Positions 3,969-31,613 of a stretch of 33,220 bases of DNA are shown one piece after another. This stretch comes from Candidatus Thiodiazotropha sp. (ex Epidulcina cf. delphinae) (GTDB lineage: Bacteria; Pseudomonadota; Gammaproteobacteria; Chromatiales; Chromatiaceae), in assembly GCA_025656505.1 (NCBI GenBank), contig JAHXHR010000029.1, positions 1 to 33,220 on the forward strand, read 5' to 3'. Both the position numbers and the translations under genes were made by a program. Positions within the stretch are counted from its first letter, which is position 1, and every line of letters begins with the position of its first letter. Below the pieces are notes generated by a model, which saw nothing but the letters and a program-made list of their open reading frames with translations, made no database searches and was not told the origin of the DNA.

Positions 3969-5747
3969 ATGCATCAGCAGTCTTCATTCAAAAGCCTACT
4001 TTCACGCAAAGTCGCCTTCGGTGCGACCCTGGGTGGCGCTGTCCTGTTCATGGTCATCGGCGTCTTACTCTGGGGTGGCTTTAATACGCTGATGGAAGCC
4101 ACCAATACCGTGGAGTTCTGCATCTCCTGCCATGAGATGGAGGAGAACGTCTATCAGGAGTTCGAAGGCACGGTCCACGACGGCAACCGAAGCGGCGTGG
4201 GCGCGGGATGCCCTGACTGCCATGTGCCCCGCCCTTGGGTGCATAAGATCGTGCGCAAGATCAGAGCCAGCAACGAAATCTGGCACAAGATCATGGGCAC
4301 CGTTGACACCCCGGAAAAATTCGAACAACACAGACTCACCATGGCCCGCCGGGTTTGGCAGGCCATGAAAGAGACCGATTCCCGAGAATGCCGTAACTGT
4401 CACGACTGGAGCACCATGAACCCAGAGAGACAGAAGCCGCGGGCGCGCAACCAACACGTCTTCGCCATGGAGCATGGCAATACCTGTATCGACTGTCATA
4501 AAGGCATCGCTCATAAACCGGTTCACACTGATATCAGTGAAGAGGAATTGGAAGCGTTGGCGACCCCCTTTGAAGCCTACAAGACCGAAATGCCGGCCTC
4601 CTTTAAGCTTGGGCTCGCTAAAGCTGCGGCCACTGAGGCCGAGGCCGAAGCAGCCCGCCGGGAAGAGAGCAGGAAGGAACGCGAACGACGCCGGGCACAG
4701 GCCCTTGCTCAACAGCAAAAGATCGATGCCGCCGTTGCTCAGGCCCTGGCGGCGGCTGGAAAAAAACCGCTCCCTGCCGGCGATACCGTCACCGCCAAGC
4801 AAGGCTTTGATGTGGATTGGAGCCGTTCGCCGGAGCGCCAAGTCACGCTCTTCTACCCTGGCCAGACCTCCATGGAGTGGACCCTGGTGGGCAAATATCA
4901 TGGCGGCGCCCGTCCCTTCCGCGCCGGTGATCGATGCACCATATGCCACGATAATGAGACCGCCGATATGGGGCAAAAAATGGTGACCGGACAGAAGGCC
5001 GAACCAACCCCGCCGGAAGGCAAGCGCGCCTCCATACCGGTGACGGTGCAGGCCGCCCACGACGGCGATAGTCTCTATTTCCGCTTCCAGTGGGAGGATA
5101 CCGAACATGTCCCGGTGCCATTCGTCGACGGTGGAAAGATGGACCCGGATAATCAGGTCAAGCTGGCGCTGATGTTGGCCACCGATGAGGTCGAGTACGC
5201 TTCACAAGCCGGTTGCTGGGGAACCTGTCACGAAGACCTGCGCACCATGCCCGGCCATCCTGAAGACCCGGCGGCCTCGGGCCTGAAACTCAACTTATCC
5301 AACGGCGTCACCAAATACATCAAGGAATCGCGCACCAAGGTTGAGGAGAAGGGAAGACGCGGCAAGAAACTGGGTGGCTGGGATAAACTCAAGGATGATG
5401 CAGGCATACAGGCGGAACGCAGTGCCCACCGCTATATGGATCTACTGCGTTGGAGCAGCAGCGGCAAGGCCGAGAACGGGCATGTGCTGGAACAGCGCAT
5501 CATGAGTGACGGCGACAACATCGAGGCGCAGGGACGGCTGGAGGCCGGGCTATGGACCGTTGAGATCAAGCGCTCGCTGAAATCCGATACGGCAGGCGAT
5601 GTGTCGATCGAACCCGGCATCCTTTACAACTTCGGTTTCGCTATTCATGATGACTACACCAGCGCCCGCTTCCACCATGTATCCCTGGGTTACAAGCTGG
5701 CGCTCGACAACGCCGATGCTGAAATCAATGCCATGGGACAAAAATAA
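3969..5747 (+). CDS. NapC/NirT-type tetraheme domain fused to an ethylbenzene-dehydrogenase-like heme-binding domain
   Basis: The product is 592 residues. Residues about 16-38 form one membrane anchor. A NapC/NirT-type quinol dehydrogenase domain follows with four c-heme motifs: CISCH (C51), CPDCH (C81), CRNCH (C141) and CIDCH (C173). Residues about 215-265 are an Ala/Glu/Arg-rich charged helix or coiled-coil linker. The C-terminal half has CTICH (C323) and an expanded CWGTCH motif (C416-H421), and reads like the periplasmic heme-binding domain of ethylbenzene dehydrogenase gamma / cytochrome c-552 proteins (signature regions around SLYFRFQWED and GILYNFGFAIHDD). The likely role is carrying electrons from the quinol pool to NirS, combining in one chain what Pseudomonas stutzeri splits between NirT and a separate soluble cytochrome. 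It lies 141 bp after nirS. The function is inferred from domains and position. Confidence 0.88.
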   Translation: MHQQSSFKSLLSRKVAFGATLGGAVLFMVIGVLLWGGFNTLMEATNTVEFCISCHEMEENVYQEFEGTVHDGNRSGVGAGCPDCHVPRPWVHKIVRKIRASNEIWHKIMGTVDTPEKFEQHRLTMARRVWQAMKETDSRECRNCHDWSTMNPERQKPRARNQHVFAMEHGNTCIDCHKGIAHKPVHTDISEEELEALATPFEAYKTEMPASFKLGLAKAAATEAEAEAARREESRKERERRRAQALAQQQKIDAAVAQALAAAGKKPLPAGDTVTAKQGFDVDWSRSPERQVTLFYPGQTSMEWTLVGKYHGGARPFRAGDRCTICHDNETADMGQKMVTGQKAEPTPPEGKRASIPVTVQAAHDGDSLYFRFQWEDTEHVPVPFVDGGKMDPDNQVKLALMLATDEVEYASQAGCWGTCHEDLRTMPGHPEDPAASGLKLNLSNGVTKYIKESRTKVEEKGRRGKKLGGWDKLKDDAGIQAERSAHRYMDLLRWSSSGKAENGHVLEQRIMSDGDNIEAQGRLEAGLWTVEIKRSLKSDTAGDVSIEPGILYNFGFAIHDDYTSARFHHVSLGYKLALDNADAEINAMGQK

Positions 5748-10774: not shown

Positions 10775-10797
10775 AGCCCGGATGTTTCACCCGGGCT
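10775..10797 (-). terminator. hairpin at the 3' end of nirN
   Basis: AGCCCGG and CCGGGCT form a 7-bp stem around a 9-nt loop, and the hairpin overlaps the last bases of the nirN stop region. There is no T-run on the minus strand, so it is a weak or factor-dependent terminator for the heme d1 operon, or an RNA 3' stabiliser. Confidence 0.4.
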
Positions 10798-12454
10798 AAT
10801 GACTTGTACCTGACGAACGTGTCAATTTATTGTAGACATTGTATTTGCCTGAGGGTTTTTTCATCGGCAATCGCTTGATCTCCTCAAGACTCCGGGCGTC
10901 GTAGATCACCAGCGCACCCTCTTTATCCCAGATGCTGACCAGAGCATAACGTCCGTCTTTGGTAAACTCCACATGGGCCGATGTCTTGCCGGGCGCCGGT
11001 CGCAGGGTCTTCACCACTTCCAGACGCTGTTTATCAATCACGTGCATGGCGTCGCTATCCTTACCGAAAAAGACATCCACCCAGGCATAGGGTGTGTTTT
11101 CATGACTGCGCATAAAGAAACCGGGACCAAGGGTCGGTATCTCCTTGATCACTTTCCAACTGTCGGTGTCGATCACGCTGACCTTGCCGGCTTTGATGTT
11201 CGGCGTCGCCAACACTGTCCTGTCACCGGCTTGCCAGGTGATGCCGGAACTGAGATGGGGCATGCCGGGAAGCTCCAACACGCCTACCGCCCTGCCCAGG
11301 TCCAGATCGACTACTTGACCCTTGCCGTCACGTGCTGTACCGGCAATCTGCGTGTAGTCCTGGCTGATAAAGAAATCGTCGAGATAATCCCTGACCTTGA
11401 TACGACGCACCGGAAACGGATCTGTGACACCACCTTCCCCCGAGTCTTCCCGGTAGTCATGTATCCAGCTACCGAAACCGATGGGCGGCGGAATCTGATA
11501 ACTGACTTCCCACACCTCGGGAATATCCTTCAAAGCAACCACGAAGCTAGAACGAGGATCGGCCGTGTAGACAGCGCTGACACGCGAACTCTTGCCCTTA
11601 TCATCCACCACGGGAATCACTTTCAGCGGCTTGAGATCCTCAGCATCCAATACCACTAGAGAGTGCGGCAGATAGTTGGCTACCATGACGAAGCGCCCAT
11701 CGTGGGAGACCGCGAGGTTGCGGGTATTGATACCCGCCCTCACCTCGGCCGTATAGGTCAGGTTGTAGATGTCGAACTTACTGATCCAGCCGTCTCTTGA
11801 GGCAAAGTAGACATAGCGTCCACCCTGGGCGTATTTAGGGCCGCCATGCAGCGCAAAGCGGGTGGGAAAGCGATGAATGGGTTCAAAACTGTCACCATTC
11901 AACAGGGTCGCGTGATGGTCGCCCAGTTCCACCACCACGAAGAGATTGTCGATATCGGCATCAAATCCGGGCTTATCCGCCAGACTGCCCGGTTTATGGA
12001 TTTCGATACGGCTAGCTTGAATCTGTTCGAATCCCCACTCAGGCATCTTCTCCAACGGCGTATAGATATAGTCAGCCAGTGATTGAATCCGGCCGCTGCT
12101 CAACACATCTTTGAATGGCGGCATCTGGGTGGCGGGTCGTCCCTCTGCAATGGTTGTTAGCGCACTTTTGGGTCTAAGCCGATGCAGGTTTTGCGGCAGT
12201 AAGGCCGGCCCTTGCCCTCCTAGCCGATCCTGCCCATGGCATTCGGCGCAGTGCTTCAGATAGAGGGTATTAATCCCGGAGATATCAGCCGGTACCACGC
12301 CACTGAATATGAGAGAGTGAAACAGCAGCAGCATGCCGCCAGATCGAAACCTGCCGGCATACTTATCCCGCCGGCCGCTGTTCTGTCCGGACACCCTGTA
12401 GTTCATCCGGGCAAGCACCGGGTTAGCGGCGCCACGGCCACGGTATGAAGCCAT
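10796..12454 (-). CDS. nirN: NirN, NirS-like c-type cytochrome / heme d1 maturation dehydrogenase
   Basis: NirN is a periplasmic paralogue of NirS that oxidises dihydro-heme d1 in the last step of heme d1 formation and helps transfer it to NirS. The product is up to 552 residues: an N-terminal hydrophobic segment (about 41-52), a cytochrome c domain with CAECHG (C69, C72, H73), and a d1-binding beta-propeller similar to NirS. The start is uncertain. The ATG at 12454 gives a long basic leader without a clear ribosome binding site; the ATG at 12406 is an alternative that keeps the export signal. It is the last gene of the minus-strand operon that begins at nirE, 36 bp behind the cytochrome c' gene. 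Confidence 0.9.
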   Translation of the reverse strand: MASYRGRGAANPVLARMNYRVSGQNSGRRDKYAGRFRSGGMLLLFHSLIFSGVVPADISGINTLYLKHCAECHGQDRLGGQGPALLPQNLHRLRPKSALTTIAEGRPATQMPPFKDVLSSGRIQSLADYIYTPLEKMPEWGFEQIQASRIEIHKPGSLADKPGFDADIDNLFVVVELGDHHATLLNGDSFEPIHRFPTRFALHGGPKYAQGGRYVYFASRDGWISKFDIYNLTYTAEVRAGINTRNLAVSHDGRFVMVANYLPHSLVVLDAEDLKPLKVIPVVDDKGKSSRVSAVYTADPRSSFVVALKDIPEVWEVSYQIPPPIGFGSWIHDYREDSGEGGVTDPFPVRRIKVRDYLDDFFISQDYTQIAGTARDGKGQVVDLDLGRAVGVLELPGMPHLSSGITWQAGDRTVLATPNIKAGKVSVIDTDSWKVIKEIPTLGPGFFMRSHENTPYAWVDVFFGKDSDAMHVIDKQRLEVVKTLRPAPGKTSAHVEFTKDGRYALVSIWDKEGALVIYDARSLEEIKRLPMKKPSGKYNVYNKLTRSSGTSH

Positions 12455-20036: not shown

Positions 20037-20918
20037 ATGAAACAGACAACAAGGCAAAATTACCGACACCGAATAACCAAAGTTATTGATTATATTCACA
20101 ATAATATTGGCGGTGATTTGAGTGTCAATGTATTGGCCGATATTGCGGTCATGTCCCCCTATCATTTCCATCGCATCTATCGTGAACTTGCCCGGGAGAC
20201 GCTGAATGCCACGATTAGACGTTTGCGCCTCCAACGCGCGGCGGTTGAGTTGATTCGCTCGACGCAGCCGATTTCCCGCATTGCAAAGAGCGTTTCCTAT
20301 GGTAGTCAGGAAGCCTTTAGCCGGGCGTTTACCCAACAGTTCGGTGAAACGCCGAGTGAGTACCGGGAAGCCGGAAAGGCGCAGGAAAACCTTGATACCG
20401 AGCCTTTTATTGCAATGTTACCCAATGAAACACAGGTGTATAAAGAAATGTATCAAGTAGACATCATCGATTCACAACCCATCCAGTTGTTTGGCTACAA
20501 GCATCAAGGCGACTATATGGAAATAGGTGCAACCTTTGAAAAGCTGTTTATCTATGGCGCGAGCAATAATTTGTTAAATGAAAATACCCGCTCTATCGGT
20601 TTGTATTACGATGACCCCAAGACAATGGCGAAAGACGAACTGCGCTCGATGGCTTGTATTACAACCGCTGTGGATACGCAGATGCCCGGTGATGACACAC
20701 CGGAAGAGACACGGATTCCGGCAGGAAAATGCGCAACGCTATTATTTAAAGGCTCATACGCCGAACTGGAAAAACCTTATGACTGGCTTTTCGGACACTG
20801 GCTGCCCCAGAGCGGTTATGAGGCTGCAGATTTCCCGGCATTTGAGGAATATTTAAACGATCCAAAGGAAACGCCCCCCAGTGAATTGCTCACACGCATT
20901 CATTGTTTACTGGTATAA
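20037..20918 (+). CDS. AraC-family regulator with a GyrI-like effector domain
   Basis: The product is 293 residues. Residues about 10-115 contain the two AraC helix-turn-helix motifs (VNVLADIAVMSPYHFHRIYR and PISRIAKSVSYGSQEAFSRAF). Residues about 140-290 form a GyrI-like/SOUL-type ligand-binding domain, as in Rob-like regulators that sense small hydrophobic compounds. The start has AGGAGG upstream. The gene looks AT-richer than its neighbours and lies beside a truncated repeat element, so it may have been acquired. Its targets are not evident; the preceding 195 bp hold no recognisable operator. Confidence 0.9.
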   Translation: MKQTTRQNYRHRITKVIDYIHNNIGGDLSVNVLADIAVMSPYHFHRIYRELARETLNATIRRLRLQRAAVELIRSTQPISRIAKSVSYGSQEAFSRAFTQQFGETPSEYREAGKAQENLDTEPFIAMLPNETQVYKEMYQVDIIDSQPIQLFGYKHQGDYMEIGATFEKLFIYGASNNLLNENTRSIGLYYDDPKTMAKDELRSMACITTAVDTQMPGDDTPEETRIPAGKCATLLFKGSYAELEKPYDWLFGHWLPQSGYEAADFPAFEEYLNDPKETPPSELLTRIHCLLV

Positions 20919-20947
20919 ATAGCGACCCTTCAGCATGTTTATTGGAT

Positions 20948-21105
20948 TGGCTGCGTTGCAACGCCTTGGAACAGCATGATGATTCCGCGTCGTTGCGCGC
21001 CGTGCAGGGATGCACCAGTGTCACAAGCACAGGGATGTGCAGGAGCGACCCTTGCCCTGCACCCCGCAAGCGCACACTTCACCCCGTCCAACTGCGGTTT
21101 TTAGG
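20948..21105 (+). mobile_element. MITE-like repeat, copy 2 (truncated)
   Basis: The segment from TGGCTGCGTTGCAACGCC to the right terminal repeat CAACTGCGGTTTTTAGG (21089-21105) matches the core and right end of the complete copies. The left arm and left terminal repeat are missing. It retains the GTGCAGG/CCTGCAC stem that copy 3 lacks. It starts about 30 bp after the AraC-type gene stop. Confidence 0.75.
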
Positions 21106-21140
21106 ATGATCCGCCCCACCTTGTGAATGAGTAAAAGCCA

Positions 21141-21166
21141 TTGCACTTTCGCAAATCGATTCGCAA
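21141..21166 (+). promoter_or_regulatory. candidate upstream activator sites for the STAS operon
   Basis: TTGCACTTTCGCAA (21141-21154) is an inverted TTGC/GCAA pair, and TTCGCAA is repeated at 21148-21154 and 21160-21166. The cluster lies about 95-120 bp upstream of the -24 GG of the sigma-54-type promoter, a normal distance for enhancer binding. It resembles LuxO-type TTGCA-N3-TGCAA sites only loosely. Confidence 0.4.
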
Positions 21167-21259
21167 TCTGCAGCCTTTTCCGGCGCGACTGATCCATCGG
21201 CTTGCCGGATCAGCCAATAACTCATTGATTTAATTATTATTAATCCTGTTACTGACAAT

Positions 21260-21275
21260 TGGCATAGGCCCTGCA
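21260..21275 (+). promoter_or_regulatory. sigma-54-type promoter of the STAS/PhnD/kinase operon
   Basis: TGGCATAGGCCCTGCA has the invariant GG (21261-21262) and GC (21273-21274) separated by exactly 10 bp, and differs from TGGCAC-N5-TTGCA at two positions. Transcription would start near 21286, 27 bp before the STAS ATG. A sigma-54 activator is encoded in the same cluster. Confidence 0.7.
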
Positions 21276-21312
21276 ATATCTCCATCAATCTTGTAACCGA
21301 CTGGAGACCGAC

Positions 21313-21633
21313 ATGGATTTTGAATGCGTTGAGACGCCCAAGGGCAAGCTGATTATTAAATTAAACGGTGAGATGAACGTTGTCGGCTGTGCTCGGATAC
21401 ATGCTTCATTGGAGCAAATCATTGACACGACGCACAACAACCATCTGCTCTTCGACTTAAGCCAAGTCAGCTTTATCGATTCCACCGGAATCGGCGTAAT
21501 CGTCTTTCTTTACAAACGACTGAGGGCCGAAGGCCGGATGTTGGAAATGATTAATGTGCAGCGCCAGCCAATGGAGATGATGGAGTTGCTGCGCATCGGC
21601 AGTGTCATCCCTGTCAGAACGGAATTGCGATAG
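21313..21633 (+). CDS. STAS-domain protein (anti-sigma-factor-antagonist fold, SypA-like)
   Basis: The product is 106 residues, a single STAS domain with the conserved phosphorylatable serine in FIDSTGIGV (S57). Such proteins switch a partner by cycling between phosphorylated and unphosphorylated states. In Vibrio fischeri the comparable protein SypA controls biofilm formation and is regulated by SypE at the equivalent serine. No SypE- or RsbW-like kinase is present in the window, so the partner is missing or elsewhere. GGAGA precedes the ATG, and a sigma-54-type promoter lies just upstream. It is the first gene before the PhnD-like gene, with a hairpin between them. Confidence 0.9.
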   Translation: MDFECVETPKGKLIIKLNGEMNVVGCARIHASLEQIIDTTHNNHLLFDLSQVSFIDSTGIGVIVFLYKRLRAEGRMLEMINVQRQPMEMMELLRIGSVIPVRTELR

Positions 21634-21650
21634 TCAGTTTATCGACTACT

Positions 21651-21686
21651 ATTAACCCGGCAACCTACATATGTCGCCGGGTTAAT
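21651..21686 (+). terminator. strong hairpin between the STAS and PhnD-like genes
   Basis: ATTAACCCGGC (21651-21661) and GCCGGGTTAAT (21676-21686) form an 11-bp perfect stem around a 14-nt loop. There is no T-run, so partial termination or differential RNA stability between the STAS gene and the downstream genes is more likely than full termination. Confidence 0.45.
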
Positions 21687-21722
21687 ATAAGCAGATCAGG
21701 ATTTGAGGTGCGAGACAGCAAT

Positions 21723-22565
21723 ATGAAAAACATCCTTGCCCCGGTAATGATACCGATCATCCTCGCCGGCAGCCCTCTCTCTGCTGATGTAACACTCAAT
21801 TTCGGCGTCTATACATCTGACAAACCCACCGCCATGGTGAAAATGTTCCGGCCGCTGCTCAACGTCCTGGAAACCAGACTTACAGCGAAACTGGGCGAAT
21901 CCACCCGCATCACGCTGCAGGTAGCCAACACCTATGATCGCGGTATCGACGATCTCATTACCGGAGAAGTCGATTTTGCACGGATGGGGCCGGCCTCCTA
22001 CATCATCGCTAAAGGCCTCAACCCCGATCTCCTGCTCCTCGCCATGGAGAGCAACAAGGACAGCAAGACCTTTTACGGTATCATCTGCGTGCAGGAGCAA
22101 AGCCCGATCCAGGACCTCGGCCAACTCAAAGGACGAACATTTGCGTTTGGCAACGAAAATTCGACCATTGGCCGCTATCTTTCACAATATCTGCTGGTAA
22201 AACAGGGTGTGCATGCCGGCGATCTGTCCGGATACCAATATCTTGAGCGGCACGACAGGGTCGGTGCAGCGGTAGCCGCCGGCCAGTTTGATGCCGGCGC
22301 ACTCAAGGAGAGTACATTTAAAAAGCTGAAGTCAAAAGGGATGAAGATTCGTGAACTGGCCCGCTTTCCCAATGTCACCAAGCCGTGGATCGCCGCCAGC
22401 GACATGCGTGCGGAGATGGTCGCTGCGCTCAGAGAGTCCCTGCTCGACCTCAAAGACCCCGCAGCGCTGAAATCGCTAAAGAAGGACGGATTCCTTCCCG
22501 CCGAGGATAGCGACTACGTCTCTATCCGGGAGTCGATGCGGAACAACGGTGACTTTTTCCGCTAA
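21723..22565 (+). CDS. PhnD-like periplasmic substrate-binding protein
   Basis: The product is 280 residues with a signal peptide (ending SPLSA-DV) and the PhnD/phosphonate-binding-protein fold. The signature DFARMGPASYIIAKG corresponds to the D-x-G-P-A-Y region of the family, and a second lobe follows (GRTFAFGNENSTIGRY, VAAGQFDAGAL). No transporter permease or ATPase is present. The next gene, about 30 bp downstream, is a membrane histidine kinase, so the protein probably presents a ligand to that sensor, as TorT does for TorS. The ligand is unknown and need not be a phosphonate. A GTG at 21708 is an alternative start with AGGA at good spacing. Confidence 0.85.
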   Translation: MKNILAPVMIPIILAGSPLSADVTLNFGVYTSDKPTAMVKMFRPLLNVLETRLTAKLGESTRITLQVANTYDRGIDDLITGEVDFARMGPASYIIAKGLNPDLLLLAMESNKDSKTFYGIICVQEQSPIQDLGQLKGRTFAFGNENSTIGRYLSQYLLVKQGVHAGDLSGYQYLERHDRVGAAVAAGQFDAGALKESTFKKLKSKGMKIRELARFPNVTKPWIAASDMRAEMVAALRESLLDLKDPAALKSLKKDGFLPAEDSDYVSIRESMRNNGDFFR

Positions 22566-22597
22566 GCGATCATCGACAGGCCGGTGTAACAGCCCTG

Positions 22598-24907
22598 ATG
22601 ACTCACCCTCCCCCTTCACTTTTCAAACGCTGGCCCCTGTGGCTGCAGGTGACGTTCGCTTTGCTAGCCGCCCTGCTGGCGGTCAACCTGCTGACCGCAT
22701 CCCTGGTCCGGCATGTAGTGAGGAATTTCGAATTCAAGCTGATCGAAAAGCAGAGCCGCAGCTCCTCTGCACTGCTGGCCGCAACGACCATCGATGCCGT
22801 GATCAGCGAGGATATCCCACTGCTTGACACCATCGCGGCACAGTCATTGGAGCAGTCGCCCAACATGCTTGAGTTCTCGATAAAGAACGAGCGGGATGAG
22901 TTATTGGTCCGGCGCTCACGCCCCGATAGCGCTGTCCGCGACATGATACGCGACTACCGCTATGCCATGGAGTTCGAAGGAGAGCGCTTTGGCTCCATCA
23001 GCATCAAGTGGGATATAGAACCGGTTCAACGCGAGATAAGCCGGCATGTGGCCAAGGTTCAGTTATTCATCTCCACGATGCTCGTGCTCCTGACCGGTCT
23101 GACCATCATGTTGATCCATTGGCTGGTCATTCGCCCGATTCGCAACATCAACCATCATCTGGTCTCCCTGTCGGACGGCAGACCATCCTCGCCACTGCGT
23201 CTTTCTCTACCGATAAGCCGGGAACTGGCGTTCCTGGCGGCATCGGCGAACGATCTCTCGAAGGCCATGCAGCAGCGGGACGAGCGTGAGTCCGAACTGT
23301 TACACACCCGTGGACAACTGCAGCTCGCCCATGACGAAGCCCTCAGTGCGAGCCGGGCCAAGTCCGGTTTTCTCGCCGCCATGAGCCATGAGATCCGCAC
23401 CCCGATGAATGCGTTGCTTGGCATTCTCGGCCTGCTCAGGGATACCCCGCTGAACCCTAAGCAGCAACGGCTTGTACAGACCGGCCGCGACTCCGGCGAG
23501 CTGTTGCTGTCGATCATCAACGATATCCTCGATTTCTCCAAGATGGAAGCGGACAAGTTGCAACTGGAACACTCCGGCTTCGACCTGCACCGCCTCCTGG
23601 CCTACACCGTCGAACTGCTCAAACCCCAAACCGATCGCAAAAACCTGGCCCTGATCCTCTTCTTGGATCCAGACCTGCCCCGCTATGCCAAGGGCGATCC
23701 GGACCGCCTGCGTCAGATCCTGCTCAACCTGATCAACAATGCCGTTAAATTCACTCCCAGCGGCAGTATCACTATTCATGCTGCTGCGGAATCGCCGACA
23801 AGCGATGCCTTTACCCTACACTGCACCGTGAAGGACACAGGGATCGGCATATCGGAAAAGCAGCGTGCCCACCTGTTCGAGGAGTTCACCATGGCCGATC
23901 AGAGCCATTCCAGAACCCATGAGGGCACAGGTCTGGGGCTGGCCATCTGCAAACGCCTGGTCTCTTTGATGGGAGGCAATATCGGCTTTCGCAGTGAGCC
24001 CGGAGACGGCAGCACTTTCTTTTTCAGCGTCGAGCTGGAAGCCGCGAATCAGCGCGACTGCAACATTGAACCGACCTCGGACGAACCGAGGCTGATGCCG
24101 ACCCGAAACACACGCATCCTGCTGGCGGAGGACAATCCGGCCAACCAAATGGTGATCAAGAGCATCCTGGAATACGCCGGTCTACAGGTGGATATCGTCG
24201 CCAACGGCCGAGAGGCGGTCGAAACCGTGCGCAATCTACCCTATGATATCGTACTGATGGATATCTCCATGCCGGAGATGGACGGCATGGCGGCCACCCG
24301 CGAGATTCGCCGAATCACGGGAGAGGGCGGCAGACTCCCGATCGTGGCCCTCACCGCCCACGCCCTGTCGGGGGACAAAGAGCACTTCCTTGAGGCGGGC
24401 ATGGATGATTACCTGACCAAGCCGATAGACCGGCCCACCATGCTCCACTGCATTGCCCGTTGGACCGGCGCCGCTGAGGCCACCGGACCGGACACCGACT
24501 CAATGCCGTCTCAAGCCGGCACAGATCCCGCCGATACCGGGGAGTACGTGGATGAATCGGTGCTGCAACAACTGGCGAAGGATACCTCGGCGGAGGTTGT
24601 GCCCGGGTTGGTCACTTTCTACATAGAAGACTCCCGCAACCGGGTAGAACAGATTCAGGAAGCGATCAAAGAGAGCGATATCAAGACCCTGGAATTCGAA
24701 AGCCATACCCTGGGCAGCAGCGCCGCCGCCCATGGCAATCCAAAACTTCACACCCTGGCGCGAAAGATCGAGGAGCTTTGCCGACAGGATGACAGTCAGC
24801 AGGCGTTGGCTCAGGCCGCCTCTCTGTCTCAGGTAGCCGATGAATCTTTTCAGCGGCTCATGCAACGCATCGAGCAGGGAATGGAAATCAATGAGGATAG
24901 GGCATGA
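22598..24907 (+). CDS. hybrid histidine kinase (sensor-HAMP-HisKA-HATPase-REC-Hpt)
   Basis: The product is 769 residues. Transmembrane helices lie near 16-38 and 156-178, enclosing a periplasmic domain of about 115 residues. A HAMP-like linker with coiled coil (about 178-255) follows. The HisKA domain has phospho-acceptor H264 (MSHEIRTPMN), and the HATPase domain has N380 (NLINNAVKF) with DTGIGI and GTGLGL motifs. The receiver has D555 (LMDISMPEMDG). The C-terminal Hpt has H703 (ESHTLGSSA). This is a complete His-Asp-His phosphorelay. The final phosphate acceptor is most likely the sigma-54 regulator encoded next, whose ATG overlaps this stop (ATGA). The upstream PhnD-like protein is the probable periplasmic ligand partner. 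Confidence 0.94.
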   Translation: MTHPPPSLFKRWPLWLQVTFALLAALLAVNLLTASLVRHVVRNFEFKLIEKQSRSSSALLAATTIDAVISEDIPLLDTIAAQSLEQSPNMLEFSIKNERDELLVRRSRPDSAVRDMIRDYRYAMEFEGERFGSISIKWDIEPVQREISRHVAKVQLFISTMLVLLTGLTIMLIHWLVIRPIRNINHHLVSLSDGRPSSPLRLSLPISRELAFLAASANDLSKAMQQRDERESELLHTRGQLQLAHDEALSASRAKSGFLAAMSHEIRTPMNALLGILGLLRDTPLNPKQQRLVQTGRDSGELLLSIINDILDFSKMEADKLQLEHSGFDLHRLLAYTVELLKPQTDRKNLALILFLDPDLPRYAKGDPDRLRQILLNLINNAVKFTPSGSITIHAAAESPTSDAFTLHCTVKDTGIGISEKQRAHLFEEFTMADQSHSRTHEGTGLGLAICKRLVSLMGGNIGFRSEPGDGSTFFFSVELEAANQRDCNIEPTSDEPRLMPTRNTRILLAEDNPANQMVIKSILEYAGLQVDIVANGREAVETVRNLPYDIVLMDISMPEMDGMAATREIRRITGEGGRLPIVALTAHALSGDKEHFLEAGMDDYLTKPIDRPTMLHCIARWTGAAEATGPDTDSMPSQAGTDPADTGEYVDESVLQQLAKDTSAEVVPGLVTFYIEDSRNRVEQIQEAIKESDIKTLEFESHTLGSSAAAHGNPKLHTLARKIEELCRQDDSQQALAQAASLSQVADESFQRLMQRIEQGMEINEDRA

Positions 24908-26304
24908 GGGACAAACCCAGTGTGTTGCTCGTGGAGGATGCCGCCCCCATGGCAGCACTTTTCCAACAATACCTGAAGGACGAGCCGATCGAACTCTCCC
25001 ATGTGGATCGAGGAAAAGCGGCAAAGACATTCATTGCCCAACGCCCGCCGGATCTGCTATTGCTCGATCTTAAACTGCCCGATATATCAGGCCAGGAAAT
25101 CCTCCAGTGGATCAGACGACAAGGCATCCCCATGTCCGTGGTCGTCATAACCTCCCACAGCTCGGTGGATGTCGCGGTAGAGGTGATGCGCATCGGCGCC
25201 GAGGATTTTCTGGAAAAACCGGTCACAGCCGATCGGCTGAAGACCACGGTCAGGAATCTGTTGGACAAGACCCGCTTGCAGCATTTGGTGAATGATATTC
25301 AAAGCACCTTCGAACGGAAGCGGTATCATGGCTTCATCGGTTCCAGTCTGCCGATGCAGGCGGTCTACCGAATCATAGACGCCGCCGCCCCCAGCAAGGC
25401 CAGTGTCTTCATCACCGGCGAGAGCGGCACCGGTAAGGAGGTTTGCGCCGAAGCAATCCACAAACAAGGGCCTCGCGCCGGCCGGCCGTTCATTGCACTG
25501 AACTGCGGCGCCGTCCCGCGCGACCTGATGGAGAGCGAAATCTTCGGTCATATCAAGGGGGCCTTCACCGGCGCCTCCGCAGAACGTAAGGGCGCCGCCT
25601 CACTCGCTGACAGCGGCACCCTGTTTCTCGATGAAATCGGCGAAATGGATATGGAGCTGCAGACGAAACTGCTACGCTTCATCCAGACCGGCAGTTTTCA
25701 AAAAGTCGGCAGCGGCAAAGTCGAGCAGGTTGATGTACGCTTCATCTGCGCGACCAACCGCGATCCCCTTGAGGCCGTGGCCGAAAAACGCCTCAGGGAG
25801 GATCTCTACTACAGGCTGCACGTCGTGCCGCTACACTTGCCGCCGTTACGCGATCGCAGCGAAGATATCATCGCCATCGCCTCCTACTTCCTGGTCACCT
25901 ATGCGAAAGAAGAGGGTAAGCACTTCGCCGGCCTGGCTCCCGAGGTAGAAGTAATCCTGTGTCACTACGGCTGGCCGGGCAATGTCAGGCAACTGCAGAA
26001 CGTGATCCGTAATATCGTTGTGCTTCACGAAGGCAAAAGCGTTAAGGCGCACCATCTCCCCCCCCCGCTGAATACGGCACTGAATGAACAAGAGATAAAG
26101 CAACTGGCGCAACCTCATCCACAGTCAGCGGGTGGCGCCCATCCCGAAAACACAGCGATAAAACCATTGGCGCAGGTCGAACGCGAAACGATCGAATGGG
26201 CTATCGAATCCTGTAACGGCAACATTCCAAGGGCTGCCGCCCTGCTCGAAGTGAGTCCATCCACGATTTACCGGAAAAAACAGGCCTGGGAGTCGGATTA
26301 TTAA
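24904..26304 (+). CDS. sigma-54-dependent response regulator (LuxO/SypG/NtrC-type)
   Basis: The product is 466 residues. The receiver domain has phospho-acceptor D55 (LLLDLKLPD). The central AAA+ domain has Walker A GESGTGKE, the GAFTGA loop that contacts sigma-54, and the Walker B region LFLDEIGEMD. The C-terminal Fis-type helix-turn-helix ends RAAALLEVSPSTIYRKKQAW, a sequence typical of LuxO/SypG-like regulators. All parts needed for sigma-54 activation are present. The start overlaps the kinase stop by 4 bp. Sigma-54-type promoter sequences lie before the STAS gene, the GGDEF gene and the polysaccharide export operon, so these are its likely targets, including its own operon. Confidence 0.95.
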   Translation: MRDKPSVLLVEDAAPMAALFQQYLKDEPIELSHVDRGKAAKTFIAQRPPDLLLLDLKLPDISGQEILQWIRRQGIPMSVVVITSHSSVDVAVEVMRIGAEDFLEKPVTADRLKTTVRNLLDKTRLQHLVNDIQSTFERKRYHGFIGSSLPMQAVYRIIDAAAPSKASVFITGESGTGKEVCAEAIHKQGPRAGRPFIALNCGAVPRDLMESEIFGHIKGAFTGASAERKGAASLADSGTLFLDEIGEMDMELQTKLLRFIQTGSFQKVGSGKVEQVDVRFICATNRDPLEAVAEKRLREDLYYRLHVVPLHLPPLRDRSEDIIAIASYFLVTYAKEEGKHFAGLAPEVEVILCHYGWPGNVRQLQNVIRNIVVLHEGKSVKAHHLPPPLNTALNEQEIKQLAQPHPQSAGGAHPENTAIKPLAQVERETIEWAIESCNGNIPRAAALLEVSPSTIYRKKQAWESDY

Positions 26305-26345
26305 CCCGGCTATATGATCCGGCGCAGCATCGCAATAACGATCTT

Positions 26346-26361
26346 CGGCACCATTCTTGCA
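26346..26361 (+). promoter_or_regulatory. sigma-54-type promoter of the REC-GGDEF gene
   Basis: CGGCACCATTCTTGCA matches TGGCAC-N5-TTGCA at all but the first base, with GG (26347-26348) and GC (26359-26360) 10 bp apart. The predicted start is near 26372, about 30 bp before the ATG. Confidence 0.75.
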
Positions 26362-26401
26362 ACATCCAGCATGAGACCCTTTCAAGGAGTTGAATGACGC
26401 A

Positions 26402-27463
26402 ATGAATACAACGATGCACAAGATCCGGCCCTGGCGCGACAACGATGATCCGGTGGGAGCCTACCCGCCACACGCCCGCCCGAACCTATCGAGAAGCCGT
26501 ATGAGGCAGGCCGTATCACGTCCCCTGTCAATCCTCCTCATAGACGATTCCCCAAGCGAACGCGCCCTGCTGCGGGCACGGCTTAAACAAATAGGGCACA
26601 AAGTGACCGAGGCGCCCGACGGCATCCGGGCACTAAGTCACCTCGAAAAATTCCGGCGGCACAGCGACCTGATCCTCCTTGACATCTGCATGCCCGGACT
26701 GGACGGCTTCGAGACTGCGACCCGCATCCGGGCACTGGAGAAGGAACAGGCAGAGGGATGGCTTCCGATCATCTTTCTCAGTGGCAAGAGCAATCCGCAC
26801 GACATTGCAAGAGGCATCATGGCCGGCGGTGACGACTACCTGACAAAACCGGTCAACACTACCGTCCTGAAGGCGAAGATCTTTGCCATGCAGCGTATCG
26901 CCGAGATGCGGCAGCAACTGCTTGATATGAAACGGCGACTTGAGATACAGGCGCATACGGACGAACTGACCCGGTTACCCAATCGGCGGCATTTTCTTGC
27001 GATACTCGATTCGGAGATCGCCCGAGCCAGGCGTCACGGGACACCACTCTCGATCGCCTATCTGGACCTGGATCATTTCAAACGGATCAACGACAGCTAC
27101 GGCCACGATACGGGAGACGCCGTATTGCGCAAGGTATCCGCGACGCTTGACGGCGGGATGCGCACTGAAGACAGTATCGGTCGCCTCGGTGGTGAAGAAT
27201 TCTGTATCTGTCTGCCGGGAAGCAATGCCGAACAGGGTATGGAGCCTTGCGAGCGCTATCGGTCACTGCTCGAAAGCCTGGTTATCGATAACGGCACGGC
27301 ACAGGGTCTGAAGCTAACGGCCAGCTTCGGCCTGACCGGTTTCAACCGTATATCAGATAACCGTTCCACCTTACTGGCGCGGGCCGACAAGGCCCTCTAT
27401 CAGGCAAAGCAAGCCGGACGTAACCGTGTTGGCGTAGTACTGCCTGATAAGCCATCCCCATAA
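26402..27463 (+). CDS. response regulator with GGDEF diguanylate cyclase domain
   Basis: The product is 353 residues. An N-terminal tail of about 40 residues precedes a receiver with D94 (LLDICMPGLDG), a short helical linker and a GGDEF domain with an intact GGEEF active site (264-268). The inhibitory I-site RxxD (RTED, 255-258) is five residues before it. It should therefore be an active, feedback-inhibited c-di-GMP synthase controlled by phosphorylation. The ATG at 26402 follows AAGGAG at 12 bp; an in-frame TTG at 26390 is too close to that site. Just upstream is a sigma-54-type promoter and the sigma-54 regulator gene; downstream is the polysaccharide export operon, the likely c-di-GMP-related output. 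Confidence 0.93.
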   Translation: MNTTMHKIRPWRDNDDPVGAYPPHARPNLSRSRMRQAVSRPLSILLIDDSPSERALLRARLKQIGHKVTEAPDGIRALSHLEKFRRHSDLILLDICMPGLDGFETATRIRALEKEQAEGWLPIIFLSGKSNPHDIARGIMAGGDDYLTKPVNTTVLKAKIFAMQRIAEMRQQLLDMKRRLEIQAHTDELTRLPNRRHFLAILDSEIARARRHGTPLSIAYLDLDHFKRINDSYGHDTGDAVLRKVSATLDGGMRTEDSIGRLGGEEFCICLPGSNAEQGMEPCERYRSLLESLVIDNGTAQGLKLTASFGLTGFNRISDNRSTLLARADKALYQAKQAGRNRVGVVLPDKPSP

Positions 27464-27500
27464 GGAAGTTCGTCGCTACATCGCTGCAATATCCGCTTAC

Positions 27501-27521
27501 GCAATCCGCAAATTGCATTGC
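27501..27521 (+). promoter_or_regulatory. candidate upstream activator sites for the polysaccharide export operon
   Basis: The 21 bp contain two GCAA (27501, 27508) and two TTGC (27513, 27518) half-sites arranged as a nested palindrome. They lie about 75-95 bp upstream of the sigma-54-type -24 element. The same GCAA/TTGC words occur upstream of the STAS operon promoter. Confidence 0.4.
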
Positions 27522-27594
27522 AGTCTGGCGCCGGGCGGGATGCAGCATGAGACTGCACTGTTTAATATATTGATATTAATAATAATTAAACCAC

Positions 27595-27610
27595 TGGCAA
27601 GGTTATTGCT
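27595..27610 (+). promoter_or_regulatory. sigma-54-type promoter of the polysaccharide export operon
   Basis: TGGCAAGGTTATTGCT differs from TGGCAC-N5-TTGCT at one position, with GG (27596-27597) and GC (27608-27609) 10 bp apart. An AT-rich inverted-repeat tract (27560-27591) lies directly upstream. The predicted start near 27621 leaves a leader of about 150 nt. Confidence 0.75.
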
Positions 27611-27769
27611 CCAATCTGCAACAAAGGCGCAAGCACAGGAATATCCACGCTGAAACCGGAGCGGTTCATCAACCGGCATGACTCGATCAGGTCTATTGCA
27701 TCGTTAAGGATCGTCCGAAGGCCACGCGGGCCGCGCTAATTGAAAGCACTTATTGCGGAGCACAGTCAG

Positions 27770-28975
27770 TTGTCTGAATATACTTACATAGCGAGGGGGT
27801 TGCTGATTATCTCGGTGATCGTTCTGAGCGGCTGCGGCAGCATGCCAGGCAAACCGGCTGATCCATTCAGCGACGGAGGCCAAGGCCAAGCGCCAAACCA
27901 TGAACTGACTGCCCTTATCAGCCAATTGCAGACCGCACGAAACACCGCTGCGACCACCGTTCCCGAACCGATCACGAGGGTGGACGCCCATCAGCTCCCC
28001 CTCTCTCGGGGCGACCGGTTGAGAATTCTTGTCTTCGAGGGGGAGCATTTCAGCGGTGTCTTTGAAGTCGATATCGACGGCCGTCTGCACATCCCGTTCA
28101 TAAAGCCTGTCCCGGCAGTAGGCGCAACGCCGTCCGAAGTGCAGCAACGCCTGGAAAAGGCGCTGGTGAAGGAGCGCATTTTCAGAGCTGATTTCGTTCA
28201 GGTCAGTGTGCGCATCCAGCAATGGTCAGGGGTGCATGTATCCGTGGCCGGAGCGGTTTTTTCACCGGGCCGGGTGTTGATTAATGATCGCAGTGTCGAG
28301 GTAAAGTCACACCAACTCACTCAGGCCGCAGGCGACTATCCCTTGGAACGCTTTCTGACCACTGCCGTTCGTAGCGCCGGAGGGGTGCGCCCGGATGCCG
28401 ATCTGAAAAATATTCGTCTAATCAGAAACGGAGAGACAAGCATCCACGATATGTCTGGAATCCTCGCCGGAAACCCGGTGCAGGACACGGCATTGATCGC
28501 CGGTGATCACATCATCGTGCCCTCCGTCGGCTTTCGACAGGACGCCCTGATGCGACCGTCCCTGATTACGCCGCCCGGATTTGAGATATTCATATCCAAT
28601 CTCTCCAGCCCCGCAGACAGTAATTCAGATGCAGCCATCGGTAAGGAATCTCGCAGTATTCCCTACGGCACACGCTTGCTAAGAGGCCTGATATCGGCGA
28701 ACTGCATCGGCGGCACGCAGGCCACCAATGCGTCACGCATGGCCGTCCATGTTACGACAGACGCTGTCTCAGGCGAGACCCAGGTCGTTCACCGATCCGT
28801 CGAACAACTGGTGCATCGGCATGATCGTGATGAATTGAATCCCTATCTGATGCCGAATGACGGCATCGCCTGTTACGACTCAGGCGTAACCAATGCCCGT
28901 GATCTGGCAAAGACCCTCAGTGATATCTTTAATCCATTAATCATGTTGCGTATTTTGACGGGATTCGGCGTGTGA
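27770..28975 (+). CDS. polysaccharide export lipoprotein (Wza/SypC-type)
   Basis: The product is 401 residues from a TTG at 27770, chosen because GGAG lies 9 bp upstream and a compact lipoprotein signal results; a TTG at 27740 has no ribosome binding site. The lipobox is LSGC (C22), giving an outer-membrane lipoprotein. A Poly_export domain follows (about 85-165; LSRGDRLRILVFEGE, DGRLHIPF), then SLBB-like segments (HVSVAGAVFSPGRVLI; GGVRPDADLKNIRLIRNG). Such proteins form the outer-membrane channel for capsule or exopolysaccharide. It overlaps the downstream Wzz-like gene and is preceded by a sigma-54-type promoter. Confidence 0.9.
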   Translation: MSEYTYIARGLLIISVIVLSGCGSMPGKPADPFSDGGQGQAPNHELTALISQLQTARNTAATTVPEPITRVDAHQLPLSRGDRLRILVFEGEHFSGVFEVDIDGRLHIPFIKPVPAVGATPSEVQQRLEKALVKERIFRADFVQVSVRIQQWSGVHVSVAGAVFSPGRVLINDRSVEVKSHQLTQAAGDYPLERFLTTAVRSAGGVRPDADLKNIRLIRNGETSIHDMSGILAGNPVQDTALIAGDHIIVPSVGFRQDALMRPSLITPPGFEIFISNLSSPADSNSDAAIGKESRSIPYGTRLLRGLISANCIGGTQATNASRMAVHVTTDAVSGETQVVHRSVEQLVHRHDRDELNPYLMPNDGIACYDSGVTNARDLAKTLSDIFNPLIMLRILTGFGV

Positions 28976-30384
28976 GCAAAGTATCAGGCAAGGATTCGCT
29001 GATACCTGACGGTGTGCGAAAGCTGTTACTCTGGACCCATGGCGATGAGCGTCGCCGGCCGCGTTACGTCTACACGATAGTCATTGTCTTGGGGCTTATC
29101 TGGGGTATGGCGACCGCCTATCTAGGGTTGACCCCGCCGATCTACAGCAGTAAATGGACATTAATTCTTCCCGGTAAAGGCGCCAGCGCCAACTTCAACC
29201 TGGTTGATATCGGCCAGGCGTCGACAGGATCGGCCTCACCCTATTCCAACTCCGTGACCAACCCAAGAGCAAACTATAAAGAACTGATTACCAGCAATAC
29301 CGTTCTCAGGATGGCGGCCGAAAAGCACGGTATGGCGATACACAGGTTCGGCGCGCCGCGGGTCAAGCTGGTGGACCAGACTTCATTGATGCACCTCAGC
29401 ATCACGGGAGAGAGTCCTGAGCAGGCGCAATCCAAGGCGGTCGCCCTGCATGAGGCATTCTCGGAACTGCTGGACAGGCTGCGCCGAGATGAACTCGAAC
29501 AGCAGGAAATGGGGGGCAACAGCATACTTATCGGCTTTCAGAGAAAACTCCGGGAAGCAAGCGGCAATCTTCTCAAGTACCAGTCCGATTCGAATATCGT
29601 ATCCATGGAACAGTTCAATCAATTGGTTCTGACGGTCGAGCAGCTCCGGCGCGAGATGATACAAACCCGTGCCGAACTGGAAGATGTTCAAGGCCGCTCA
29701 AAGCAACTTGTTTCGAATCTCGGCGTTACCCCGCAACAAGCAAGCGATGCCCTGATCCTGCAAAACGACAAGCTGTTCACAACCGCCTTGAGGGAATATA
29801 CGGATGCCCGACAGCGCCTTAACACAAATGCCTCAAAGTGGGACAGGAATCACCCGGAGGTTCGCAAAGAGCATGCACGTGAGTCGGCCGCAAAACAGGC
29901 CATGAATAAGCGTGTTAAAATCTTGCTTAAAGGTCGCAACGGCGAGTTGATCGATTTGCTGTCTCTTGCCGGTGACAATACCAGGAACGCATTGCTGCAG
30001 GAGCTTATCGCCATGGATGCGAAATACAACGGACTACAGAAGAGACGGGATAAAATCTCCGTTCTTATCGCCGAAATGGAGCATGAGCGCAGTTCCCTGA
30101 CCCGACCGGCAGCCATGCTGGATGACTTGAAGCGCAACCACCAGGTTGCGGAAGCGGTATTCATCTCGGCTTTGGCTCGCACGGACATTGCGAAATCCGA
30201 CATTTATGTCTCTTTTCCCTTGGTTCAACTGCTTGACGAGCCACTATTGCCGACAAAGGTCTCTTCGCCGAATAAAATGCTGACCATTACCGGCGCGTTT
30301 GTTGCCTCGATTTTCACTGTAACCGGATTGGTGTTGATGTGGATACGCAGACCGTTTCTCCGCAGAATTTTGAAGAGCGAATAA
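28972..30384 (+). CDS. Wzz/GNVR-type polysaccharide chain-length/export protein
   Basis: The product is 470 residues from a GTG that overlaps the preceding stop. A transmembrane helix lies near 33-55 and a second near 440-460. Between them is a long periplasmic helical coiled-coil region (about 150-400), followed by the GNVR-like region before the second helix. This is the polysaccharide co-polymerase plan. No cytoplasmic tyrosine-kinase domain is attached, as in SypO-like or EpsF-like members. It partners with the export lipoprotein upstream. The end overlaps the start of the ligase-like gene by 46 bp. Confidence 0.88.
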   Translation: MSKVSGKDSLIPDGVRKLLLWTHGDERRRPRYVYTIVIVLGLIWGMATAYLGLTPPIYSSKWTLILPGKGASANFNLVDIGQASTGSASPYSNSVTNPRANYKELITSNTVLRMAAEKHGMAIHRFGAPRVKLVDQTSLMHLSITGESPEQAQSKAVALHEAFSELLDRLRRDELEQQEMGGNSILIGFQRKLREASGNLLKYQSDSNIVSMEQFNQLVLTVEQLRREMIQTRAELEDVQGRSKQLVSNLGVTPQQASDALILQNDKLFTTALREYTDARQRLNTNASKWDRNHPEVRKEHARESAAKQAMNKRVKILLKGRNGELIDLLSLAGDNTRNALLQELIAMDAKYNGLQKRRDKISVLIAEMEHERSSLTRPAAMLDDLKRNHQVAEAVFISALARTDIAKSDIYVSFPLVQLLDEPLLPTKVSSPNKMLTITGAFVASIFTVTGLVLMWIRRPFLRRILKSE

Positions 30385-31613
30385 TCTGGTATTCGATCAC
30401 CTTCACCTACGGGTTCTACCTGATCGGGGGGCTTTACGTTCTGGCGCCGGTTGTGGGATGGGTGCTCCTGGGCTATTTAGGCCGGCGACTTTGGTCTCAG
30501 GATGACGATACGCCGGAACGGCTACGGGTTCGCATACCCGCCGGGGTCTGGATTTGGGTGATCGCCATGCTGGTGATGTTGGTTGCCTTGATCATAGGGC
30601 ATATCGACTGGGAACTCGGCTTGGGAAAAACCGTCAAGTCCACCATCGGTTGGGCCAAAGGCTGGGCGCTGATGGCAGTGTTCCCGCTGATCGGATGCCT
30701 GAATATCCGTCCCGAGATCATCTATCGGGCGGCAAGCATCGTCTGTCTGCACACCTTGATCCTGATGCCGTTTCTGTATGCCGCCTATCTGCTCGGGCTG
30801 CCGCAGGATCTGTATATATCCCCAATCCAACATGTGGGCGGTCCCGGACCTGAGTTCTTCATGGTATCGCTCTACAACGTAGATTATGAAGGTGTTGCGC
30901 GCTGGTTTCTGTTCGCCCCCTGGGCGCCGGCGCTCGGTTTTGTCGCCAATGTCTACTTACTGTTTGCTTTACAGGAGAAGGAGAGGAAGTGGTTCTGGAT
31001 CGGCATCCTGGGATGCATCGTCATGGTGTTGATTTGCAAATCAAGGCTGGCCTTGGTGGTGATGGCGCTCATCCCTTTGGCCGGTTGGGCGCTAAGCCGG
31101 TTGACGCAAACACGCATCCTGCTGATGGCAGGCGCCGGCTCCTTAATCGCCGGTATGGCAGCGCCCTTCCTGATCCGGTTGCTCGATGATTTGGCAGCCG
31201 GATTTCGCGCCGCCAGGGTGGATTCGAGCCGGGTGCGCGAAACGCTCGGACGCATTGCCCTGGACCGCTGGCAGGGAGAGGCCCCGGTATGGGGGCACGG
31301 CATTGTAGAGCGGGGGCCGCATTTGGTTGAGTATATGCCTATCGGTTCTCATCATACCTGGTATGGACTGCTGTTTGTCAAAGGCGCCGTCGGTTTCGTC
31401 GCCTTGGCCGTACCGTTGTTATGGAGTTTCGTTGAACTGTTGCTCAAGGCCCAGACCAGTCAGACGGCAAAGACCGGACTGGGTATGGTGATGCTGCTGT
31501 TTCTCTATACCTTCGGAGAAAACCTGGAGATTCTCGCCTACCTGTTCTGGCCGGGCCTGGTGCTCATCGGCATCGCCCATAGGGAAGCACTCAAAAATCC
31601 CTTACCCAGGTGA
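30339..31613 (+). CDS. O-antigen ligase/polymerase-like membrane protein
   Basis: The product is 424 residues with about ten to twelve hydrophobic segments and a larger periplasmic loop (around residues 285-345) containing SRVRETLGRIALDRW, GHGIVERGPH and IGSHHTWYG. The Gly-His and HHTWY motifs in the last large loop are typical of the Wzy_C/WaaL family (O-antigen ligases and polymerases, SypL-like proteins). It probably polymerises or ligates the polysaccharide exported by the two upstream products. The ATG lies within the Wzz-like gene, indicating translational coupling. No glycosyltransferase is visible in the window, so the rest of the pathway is elsewhere. Confidence 0.87.
   Translation: MDTQTVSPQNFEERIIWYSITFTYGFYLIGGLYVLAPVVGWVLLGYLGRRLWSQDDDTPERLRVRIPAGVWIWVIAMLVMLVALIIGHIDWELGLGKTVKSTIGWAKGWALMAVFPLIGCLNIRPEIIYRAASIVCLHTLILMPFLYAAYLLGLPQDLYISPIQHVGGPGPEFFMVSLYNVDYEGVARWFLFAPWAPALGFVANVYLLFALQEKERKWFWIGILGCIVMVLICKSRLALVVMALIPLAGWALSRLTQTRILLMAGAGSLIAGMAAPFLIRLLDDLAAGFRAARVDSSRVRETLGRIALDRWQGEAPVWGHGIVERGPHLVEYMPIGSHHTWYGLLFVKGAVGFVALAVPLLWSFVELLLKAQTSQTAKTGLGMVMLLFLYTFGENLEILAYLFWPGLVLIGIAHREALKNPLPR

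Follow-up and report, generated by a model that had tools for sequence, protein, structure and literature searches.

In the syp locus of Vibrio fischeri, a sigma-54 promoter and SypG sites accompany each of the four operons (PMC10804989). Loci of the syp/scv type under SypG-like regulators are known from 28 genera (PMC8941931), and ScvE of V. parahaemolyticus and RbdG of V. vulnificus are taken as counterparts for the V. fischeri SypG regulon. Regulators of this family bind a half-site, three bases, and a second half-site; the form for SypG is TTCTCANNNTGMDWN and that for LuxO is TTGCAWWWTGCAA (PMC10162802). A related arrangement was found in one whole contig (C29; JAHXHR010000029.1, 33,220 nucleotides, hereafter the window) of the draft genome of Candidatus Thiodiazotropha sp. 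(ex Epidulcina cf. delphinae), which consists of 3.43 Mb in 159 contigs. Quite probably, a SypG-like response regulator acts there in a Syp/Scv-type phosphorelay with positive autoregulation, activating its own operon from a sigma-54 promoter (P1) and polysaccharide export from a second one (P3). By analogy, the circuit type is one already known, in which a sigma-54 activator drives its own and polysaccharide operons, because the same logic is found in the V. fischeri syp operons and syp/scv loci occur in the 28 genera.

Comparison with Described Systems

The window shares with V. fischeri syp a STAS gene, a hybrid kinase with an Hpt domain, an orthologous sigma-54 regulator, a polysaccharide output, several operons with a sigma-54 promoter and an enhancer, and a regulator gene placed within the locus that it is predicted to activate. 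It differs in its condensed order (STAS, substrate-binding protein, histidine kinase, response regulator), in a diguanylate cyclase gene next to the regulator, and in its enhancers, which are of the form GCA-N3-TGC versus the TTCTCA-N3-TGAGAA prevailing in the Vibrionaceae loci examined. Because its export genes are not recognizably syp, the window is classed from its sequence as a Syp-type regulatory module and not as a syp locus. The initial annotation, which had described three sigma-54-type promoters around an activator gene, missed both the Syp/Scv-type module and the enhancers, and a fourth candidate promoter lay out of its view.

The features in common with the Vibrio LuxO/qrr system are the regulator family, the GFIGSS linker, an NIP helix, and the GCA-N3-TGC core, which lies ~74-95 nucleotides (nt) upstream in LuxO loci. 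Unlike LuxO, the window regulator is placed with SypG in a phylogenetic tree. An RNA element in the leaders was considered and rejected; the Rfam search of the window gave a single sub-threshold match, to a snoRNA family. In sensors of the LuxP-LuxQ and TorT-TorS types, a periplasmic binding protein is encoded beside a hybrid kinase, as it is in the window, but the binding protein of the window is PhnD-type.

The related loci used for comparison were 80 listed from a scan of named genomes, in which at least 80 occur, and flanks of up to 10 kb were searched. STAS-like open reading frames are present in 44 of these loci and PhnD-type open reading frames in 12. The window export protein has weak matches (34-49 bits) in three of the 80 at E<=1e-8. 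The chain-length-like and polymerase-like proteins have no match in any of the 80 loci at this threshold within the flanks searched. The pattern TGGCA-N7-TGC was counted 203 times in the 80 loci versus 32 times for the reversed pattern, and the words counted upstream of these sites assemble to TTCTCA-N3-TGAGAA.

Sigma-54 Promoters and Paired Enhancers

Three forward-strand sites with exact GG-N10-GC spacing were recovered where the initial annotation had placed them, before the STAS, REC-GGDEF, and export genes. P1 (TGGCATAGGCCCTGC, 21260-21274) precedes the operon of the STAS protein, binding protein, kinase, and regulator; the weakly supported P2 (CGGCACCATTCTTGC, 26346-26360) precedes the REC-GGDEF gene; and P3 (TGGCAAGGTTATTGC, 27595-27609), which has a single mismatch to TGGCACGNNNNTTGC, precedes the export operon. 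The sites were scored with a 19-bp matrix. Its training set consisted of 91 promoters, 75 of them with Vibrio-type TCA enhancers, drawn from 39 of the 80 related loci, and contained neither the window nor its relative G007. P1, P2, and P3 score 17.7, 12.8, and 12.3; when every window position is ranked, with both strands counted, they come first, third, and fourth. Scores as high or higher are reached at 0, 11, and 18, respectively, of the 799,280 positions in a 400 kb sample of the host genome. Score alone therefore marks P1 as exceptional and does not do so for P2 or P3. P3 is backed otherwise, by an enhancer and by conservation, and P2 has little such backing. One match to rpoN was found in the host genome.

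Palindromes that resemble the enhancers of this regulator family lie upstream of P1 and P3. U1 (TTCGCAATCTGCAGC, 21160-21174) stands 100 nt ahead of P1, and U3 (TCCGCAAATTGCATT, 27505-27519) stands 90 nt ahead of P3; each matches 11 of the 12 half-site positions and has the form YCGCA-N3-TGC. The 15-bp architecture is the same as that of the V. fischeri enhancers and a core letter differs; the SypG form TTCTCANNNTGMDWN itself was not found upstream of the window targets, where the sites are GCA-N3-TGC. Matches of at least 11/12 occur at 38 of 399,700 sampled positions. When the core letters CA and TG are required as well, five remain in the whole window, U1 and U3 among them. Enhancers of at least 11/12 were then paired with promoters scoring at least 10 at a separation of 55-150 nt. 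Three pairs were obtained in the window. The pair at 1206 lacks the TGC half, and the full GCA-N3-TGC core is found only in the other two, those of P1 and P3. The 400 kb of genome gave two pairs, neither with the full core. No enhancer of at least 10/12 was detected in the 340 nt upstream of P2 (26000-26340), where the best match is 9/12; the nearest is a 10/12 palindrome without the TGC half at 25992. Judged from sequence, the combination of exactly spaced -24/-12 elements, rpoN, and an upstream enhancer is complete for P1 and P3 and lacks the enhancer for P2.

It is very improbable that P1, P2, and P3 are all chance matches and the locus an ordinary one driven by sigma-70. Consensus counting with up to three mismatches does give 99 sites in the window versus 109.8 expected, which is no excess over chance. 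Against this explanation stand the score of P1, which exceeds those of all 799,280 sampled positions, and the paired and conserved enhancers. In addition, a scan of 20900-28000 gave six sigma-70-like matches versus 3.5 expected, and the four on the forward strand are all away from the positions immediately ahead of the STAS, REC-GGDEF, and export genes.

Conservation in a Relative of the Same Genus

An orthologous regulator was found in one of the 21 same-genus relatives searched, G007, and is 86% identical. The G007 locus is collinear with the window over 21146-31604, except between the regulator and the cyclase. The P1 block (21259-21276) is identical at 17 of 18 positions and the U1 region (21149-21174) at 22 of 26, versus 52 of 80 in the spacer. 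For the second promoter, the P3 block (27594-27610) is identical at 15 of 17 positions and the U3 region (27503-27519) at 16 of 17, versus 28 of 49 in the spacer. The cores and enhancers are kept above the spacer with permutation values of 0.006 for P1 and 0.0004 for P3.

An A/T tract just upstream of P3 on the forward strand (27569-27590) is identical at 19 of 22 positions in G007 and is possibly a bend or a factor site. A similar A/T-rich word, inverted, was seen by eye near P1 (~21229-21245).

Regulator and Proposed Circuit

The response regulator (24904-26304, forward strand) carries a REC domain with the phospho-site motif LDLKLP, an AAA domain with GAFTGA at 219, the glycine of the LuxO-type linker (GFIGSS at 143), and a Fis-type helix-turn-helix. 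Its NCBIfam scores are 648 bits for LuxO (cut-off 800) and 341 bits for the PEP-CTERM response regulator (cut-off 502.6). A PrsK/PrsR PEP-CTERM assignment, prompted by the combination of sigma-54 and polysaccharide export, was rejected on these scores. In a tree of 90 rows, built with a quick method for which the program warns of long branches, the window regulator and the Vibrionaceae SypG proteins fall in one 57-row clade (SH-aLRT 99) with five LuxO proteins outside; the window regulator itself falls outside the Vibrionaceae clade. From these sequence comparisons, the protein is classed as a SypG/ScvE-type member of the LuxO superfamily.

Another contig of the host genome, C124, has a fourth candidate promoter at 1385 (TGGCATATATTCTGC), which scores 18.5; two palindromes, each matching at 10/12, lie 78 and 91 nt upstream of it. 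The genes that follow encode two glycosyltransferases with a flippase between them. In G007, the counterpart of this operon shares a contig with the remainder of the locus. On the reverse strand of C124 (locus L160), the gene at 75-761 terminates in a sorting tail resembling PEP-CTERM, which at 14.1 bits is below the Pfam cut-off. A sigma-54-like site upstream of that gene (932-946, reverse strand, score 15.9) is divergent from the glycosyltransferase operon.

From the gene identities, sites, spacing, and conservation present in the sequence, we infer the binding, expression, ligand, and direction of phosphotransfer of the following circuit. The PhnD-type binding protein and the hybrid kinase with Hpt, as presumed partners, would control the phosphorylation of the SypG-like regulator. 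Bound to the GCA-N3-TGC palindromes U1 and U3, 90-100 nt ahead of the promoters, the regulator would activate the sigma-54 polymerase at P1 and P3. The output would be a raised expression of its own operon (STAS protein, binding protein, kinase, and regulator) and of the polysaccharide export operon, and the glycosyltransferase/flippase operon on C124 would probably be raised as well. The Syp-type control module appears to be portable, its partners in this genome being a polysaccharide cluster of another kind and a diguanylate cyclase, and the window supplies exact enhancer sites for testing (21160-21174 and 27505-27519).

Several observations weigh against this circuit. P3 by itself is ordinary in score (18 of 799,280 positions as high), and its G007 counterpart is weaker than that of the window in both promoter (9.0, with 91 sampled positions as high) and enhancer (10/12). 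P2 is without an enhancer, and the C124 enhancers reach only 10/12. The enhancer-promoter distances of the training set, mostly of Vibrio type, peak at ~63, 74, 85, and 96 nt. These steps of one helical turn look as if the face of the helix matters for this regulator family. The 90 and 100 nt of the window fall between the peaks; if helix face matters, the phasing in the window therefore differs. Ten of the training pairs contain the full GCA-N3-TGC core; their distances scatter over 40-151 nt, and their number is too small to define a phase for this type. Under the strict test, a GCA enhancer stands before a promoter-like site in only seven of the 39 related loci whose regulators carry the NIP helix. 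In V. fischeri, the sypF and sypG transcripts appear to be partly uncoupled from the sypA promoter (PMC10804989), and autoregulation through P1 could be weak for this reason. In agreement with the initial annotation, no second sigma-54 activator was seen among 20 scanned window proteins, which are part of the open reading frames. In the genome, where 29 of the 76 first-look candidates were scored, the regulator has at least 13 matches at E<=1e-60, one of them being itself, so the lack of a second activator in view is no proof that this one is used.

These further matches would also suit an arrangement in which genuine sigma-54 promoters respond to an activator other than the adjacent one, such as a PrsR of the PEP-CTERM type or an Ntr-family regulator, as would the PEP-CTERM-like gene with a strong sigma-54 site beside the C124 operon. 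Such an arrangement is unlikely given the higher score of the window regulator as a LuxO type than as a PEP-CTERM regulator, and given that GCA-N3-TGC is the enhancer type of the LuxO family, present in all five over-cut-off LuxO loci examined.

Cyclase Gene and P2

The REC-GGDEF diguanylate cyclase is encoded at 26390-27463 on the forward strand and contains GGEEF and RxxD motifs. Its start codon is uncertain, with TTG 26390, ATG 26402, and ATG 26501 among the candidates; P2 lies 44-56 nt before two of them and 155 nt before the third. The closed circuit proposed in the initial annotation also included cyclic di-GMP (c-di-GMP) synthesis. For P1 and P3 this proposal is upheld by the enhancers at 90-100 nt, by conservation, and by the same logic in relatives and in V. 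fischeri. The c-di-GMP arm via P2 is plausible from the sequence and unproven in the window.

That P1 and P3 form the circuit while P2 is a chance site, with the cyclase expressed only by read-through or from another promoter and no separate arm, has just short of an even chance of being correct. The best enhancer match upstream of P2, 9/12, agrees with this alternative, as do the G007 counterpart, which scores 4.2 (756 sampled positions as high), and the region 26300-26516, which gave no blastn alignment to G007. One pattern scan found no terminator-like site on the forward strand between the regulator and the cyclase, so read-through from P1 into the cyclase is also possible. The third rank of P2 in the window and its position before two possible start codons are harder to reconcile with a chance site. 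A global alignment had indicated that P2 is absent from G007; this was overturned by a 62-nt block from P2 that aligns ungapped with G007 at 36 of 62 positions, the best of 520 offsets (next best, 30). P2 is held to be unproven because the matrix score of this homologous block is low.

The remaining point against a chance site comes from locus L063, which belongs to a relative more distant than G007. It holds the single close cyclase ortholog (>400 bits; next best, 107) among the 80 related loci listed, identical to the window cyclase at 196 of 313 residues (63%). The L063 cyclase gene has a 12/12 enhancer at 102 nt and a one-mismatch -24/-12 element (TGGCTCGTCTCTTGC), and its kinase-regulator operon has a 12/12 enhancer and TGGCATGATCATTGC. 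L063, a single locus, gives the strongest indication that the cyclase plausibly belongs to the regulon in this lineage. For the window, co-expression of the cyclase by read-through from P1 is probable and expression from P2 is possible.

Enhancer Type and Regulator Helix 2

The related loci were grouped by the second helix of their regulators, two GNVP loci of the 80 being left out. For GNIP regulators (39 loci, 62 promoter-like sites), nine sites are of the GCA type (seven loci) and one is of the TCA type (one locus). For GNVL/GNVI regulators (39 loci, 139 promoter-like sites), five are of the GCA type (five loci) and 49 are of the TCA type (30 loci). The rates at random places are 1.7% GCA and 1.1% TCA in the GNIP group, and 0.7% GCA and 3.2% TCA in the GNVL/GNVI group. 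Among de novo words, GCA-3-TGC is at the top in the GNIP group (18 seen versus 4.5 expected) with a small lead over the next, and TTC/TCA/TGA words are at the top in the other group. The five over-cut-off LuxO loci examined all have the NIP helix and TTGCA-N3-TGCAA sites. The association of helix and enhancer gives a Fisher value of 6.7e-7, which overstates the evidence because there is one main change on the tree by eye (39 Vibrionaceae rows).

We hypothesize from these sequences that the enhancer type tracks the regulator helix, NIP going with GCA-N3-TGC and the NVL of Vibrionaceae SypG mostly with TCA-N3-TGA. No statement of such a correspondence was found in a partial literature search. 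The mixed enhancer sites of the Aliivibrio loci weigh against a simple helix code. So does the lowered SypG activation that followed a G-to-T change making a qrr1 site more SypG-like (PMC10162802).

An evolutionary version of this proposal is more tentative, and we consider it rather less probable than its opposite. The window would keep an older code shared with LuxO (NIP, GCA-N3-TGC), Vibrionaceae SypG would have moved to NVL/NVI and TCA-N3-TGA, and the regulator of the window lineage would also command c-di-GMP synthesis. SypG would thereby have been separated from LuxO in cells holding both, and the family would be a naturally occurring example of a specificity switch in an enhancer-binding protein. 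The proposed helix-to-DNA correspondence could account for insulation, or for cross-talk, between LuxO and SypG in one cell.

Genome-Wide Pattern

The bare enhancer and promoter pattern gave 18 matches over the host genome versus one in the control. Fourteen of these were scored, and four on contigs C64, C74, C78, and C129 were left out. Among the 14, an enhancer of at least 10/12 together with a promoter score of at least 10 was found for P1, P3, the C124 site, and one match on C144. Most bare-pattern matches were therefore not assigned to this regulon, since only these four reach the joint thresholds. The C144 match is antisense inside an open reading frame.

In G007, the bare pattern gave 46 matches, of which 25 are one repeated element. 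A repeated, nearly palindromic element beginning GCAGTGTGCC is present on several G007 contigs, at 13 places among the matches listed. In locus L061 (~4653-4860; G007:C35 8652-8859), two divergent sigma-54-like sites surround one enhancer cluster; one precedes a glycosyltransferase gene, and the other precedes a gene on the opposite strand that was judged NUDIX-like by eye.

Gene Content of the Locus

The gene order on the forward strand from 21313 is STAS, PhnD-type substrate-binding protein, hybrid histidine kinase, sigma-54 response regulator, REC-GGDEF, Poly_export, chain-length-like protein, and hydrophobic protein. The SypA-like STAS-domain gene (21313-21633; Pfam STAS, 1e-17) encodes a DSTGIG motif at residue 56. 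No SypE-type serine kinase/phosphatase for the STAS protein was detected among the 20 window proteins scanned, and one SpoIIE-family match is present elsewhere in the host genome. The PhnD-type periplasmic binding protein is encoded at 21708-22565 (Pfam Phosphonate-bd, 3e-50). The hybrid kinase (22598-24907) was identified as HisKA-HATPase-REC-Hpt by family search and by the phospho-site motifs MSHEIRTP, LMDISMPEMDG, and ESHTLGSS.

The outer-membrane polysaccharide export protein (27740-28975) was identified by family search, and its TTG start is backed by an ATG at the equivalent place in G007. It is followed by the gene for a chain-length-determinant-like protein (28972-30384), with sub-cutoff matches to pepcterm_ChnLen, GNVR, and Wzz, and by that for a hydrophobic protein (30339-31613), which has no Pfam match and is polymerase-like by context only. 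Two nirS-like cytochrome d1/cytochrome c proteins are encoded in opposite orientation at 2178-3827 and 10796-12454 of the window. NirDL-like and radical SAM genes lie near this pair, a denitrification-type region beside the polysaccharide locus.

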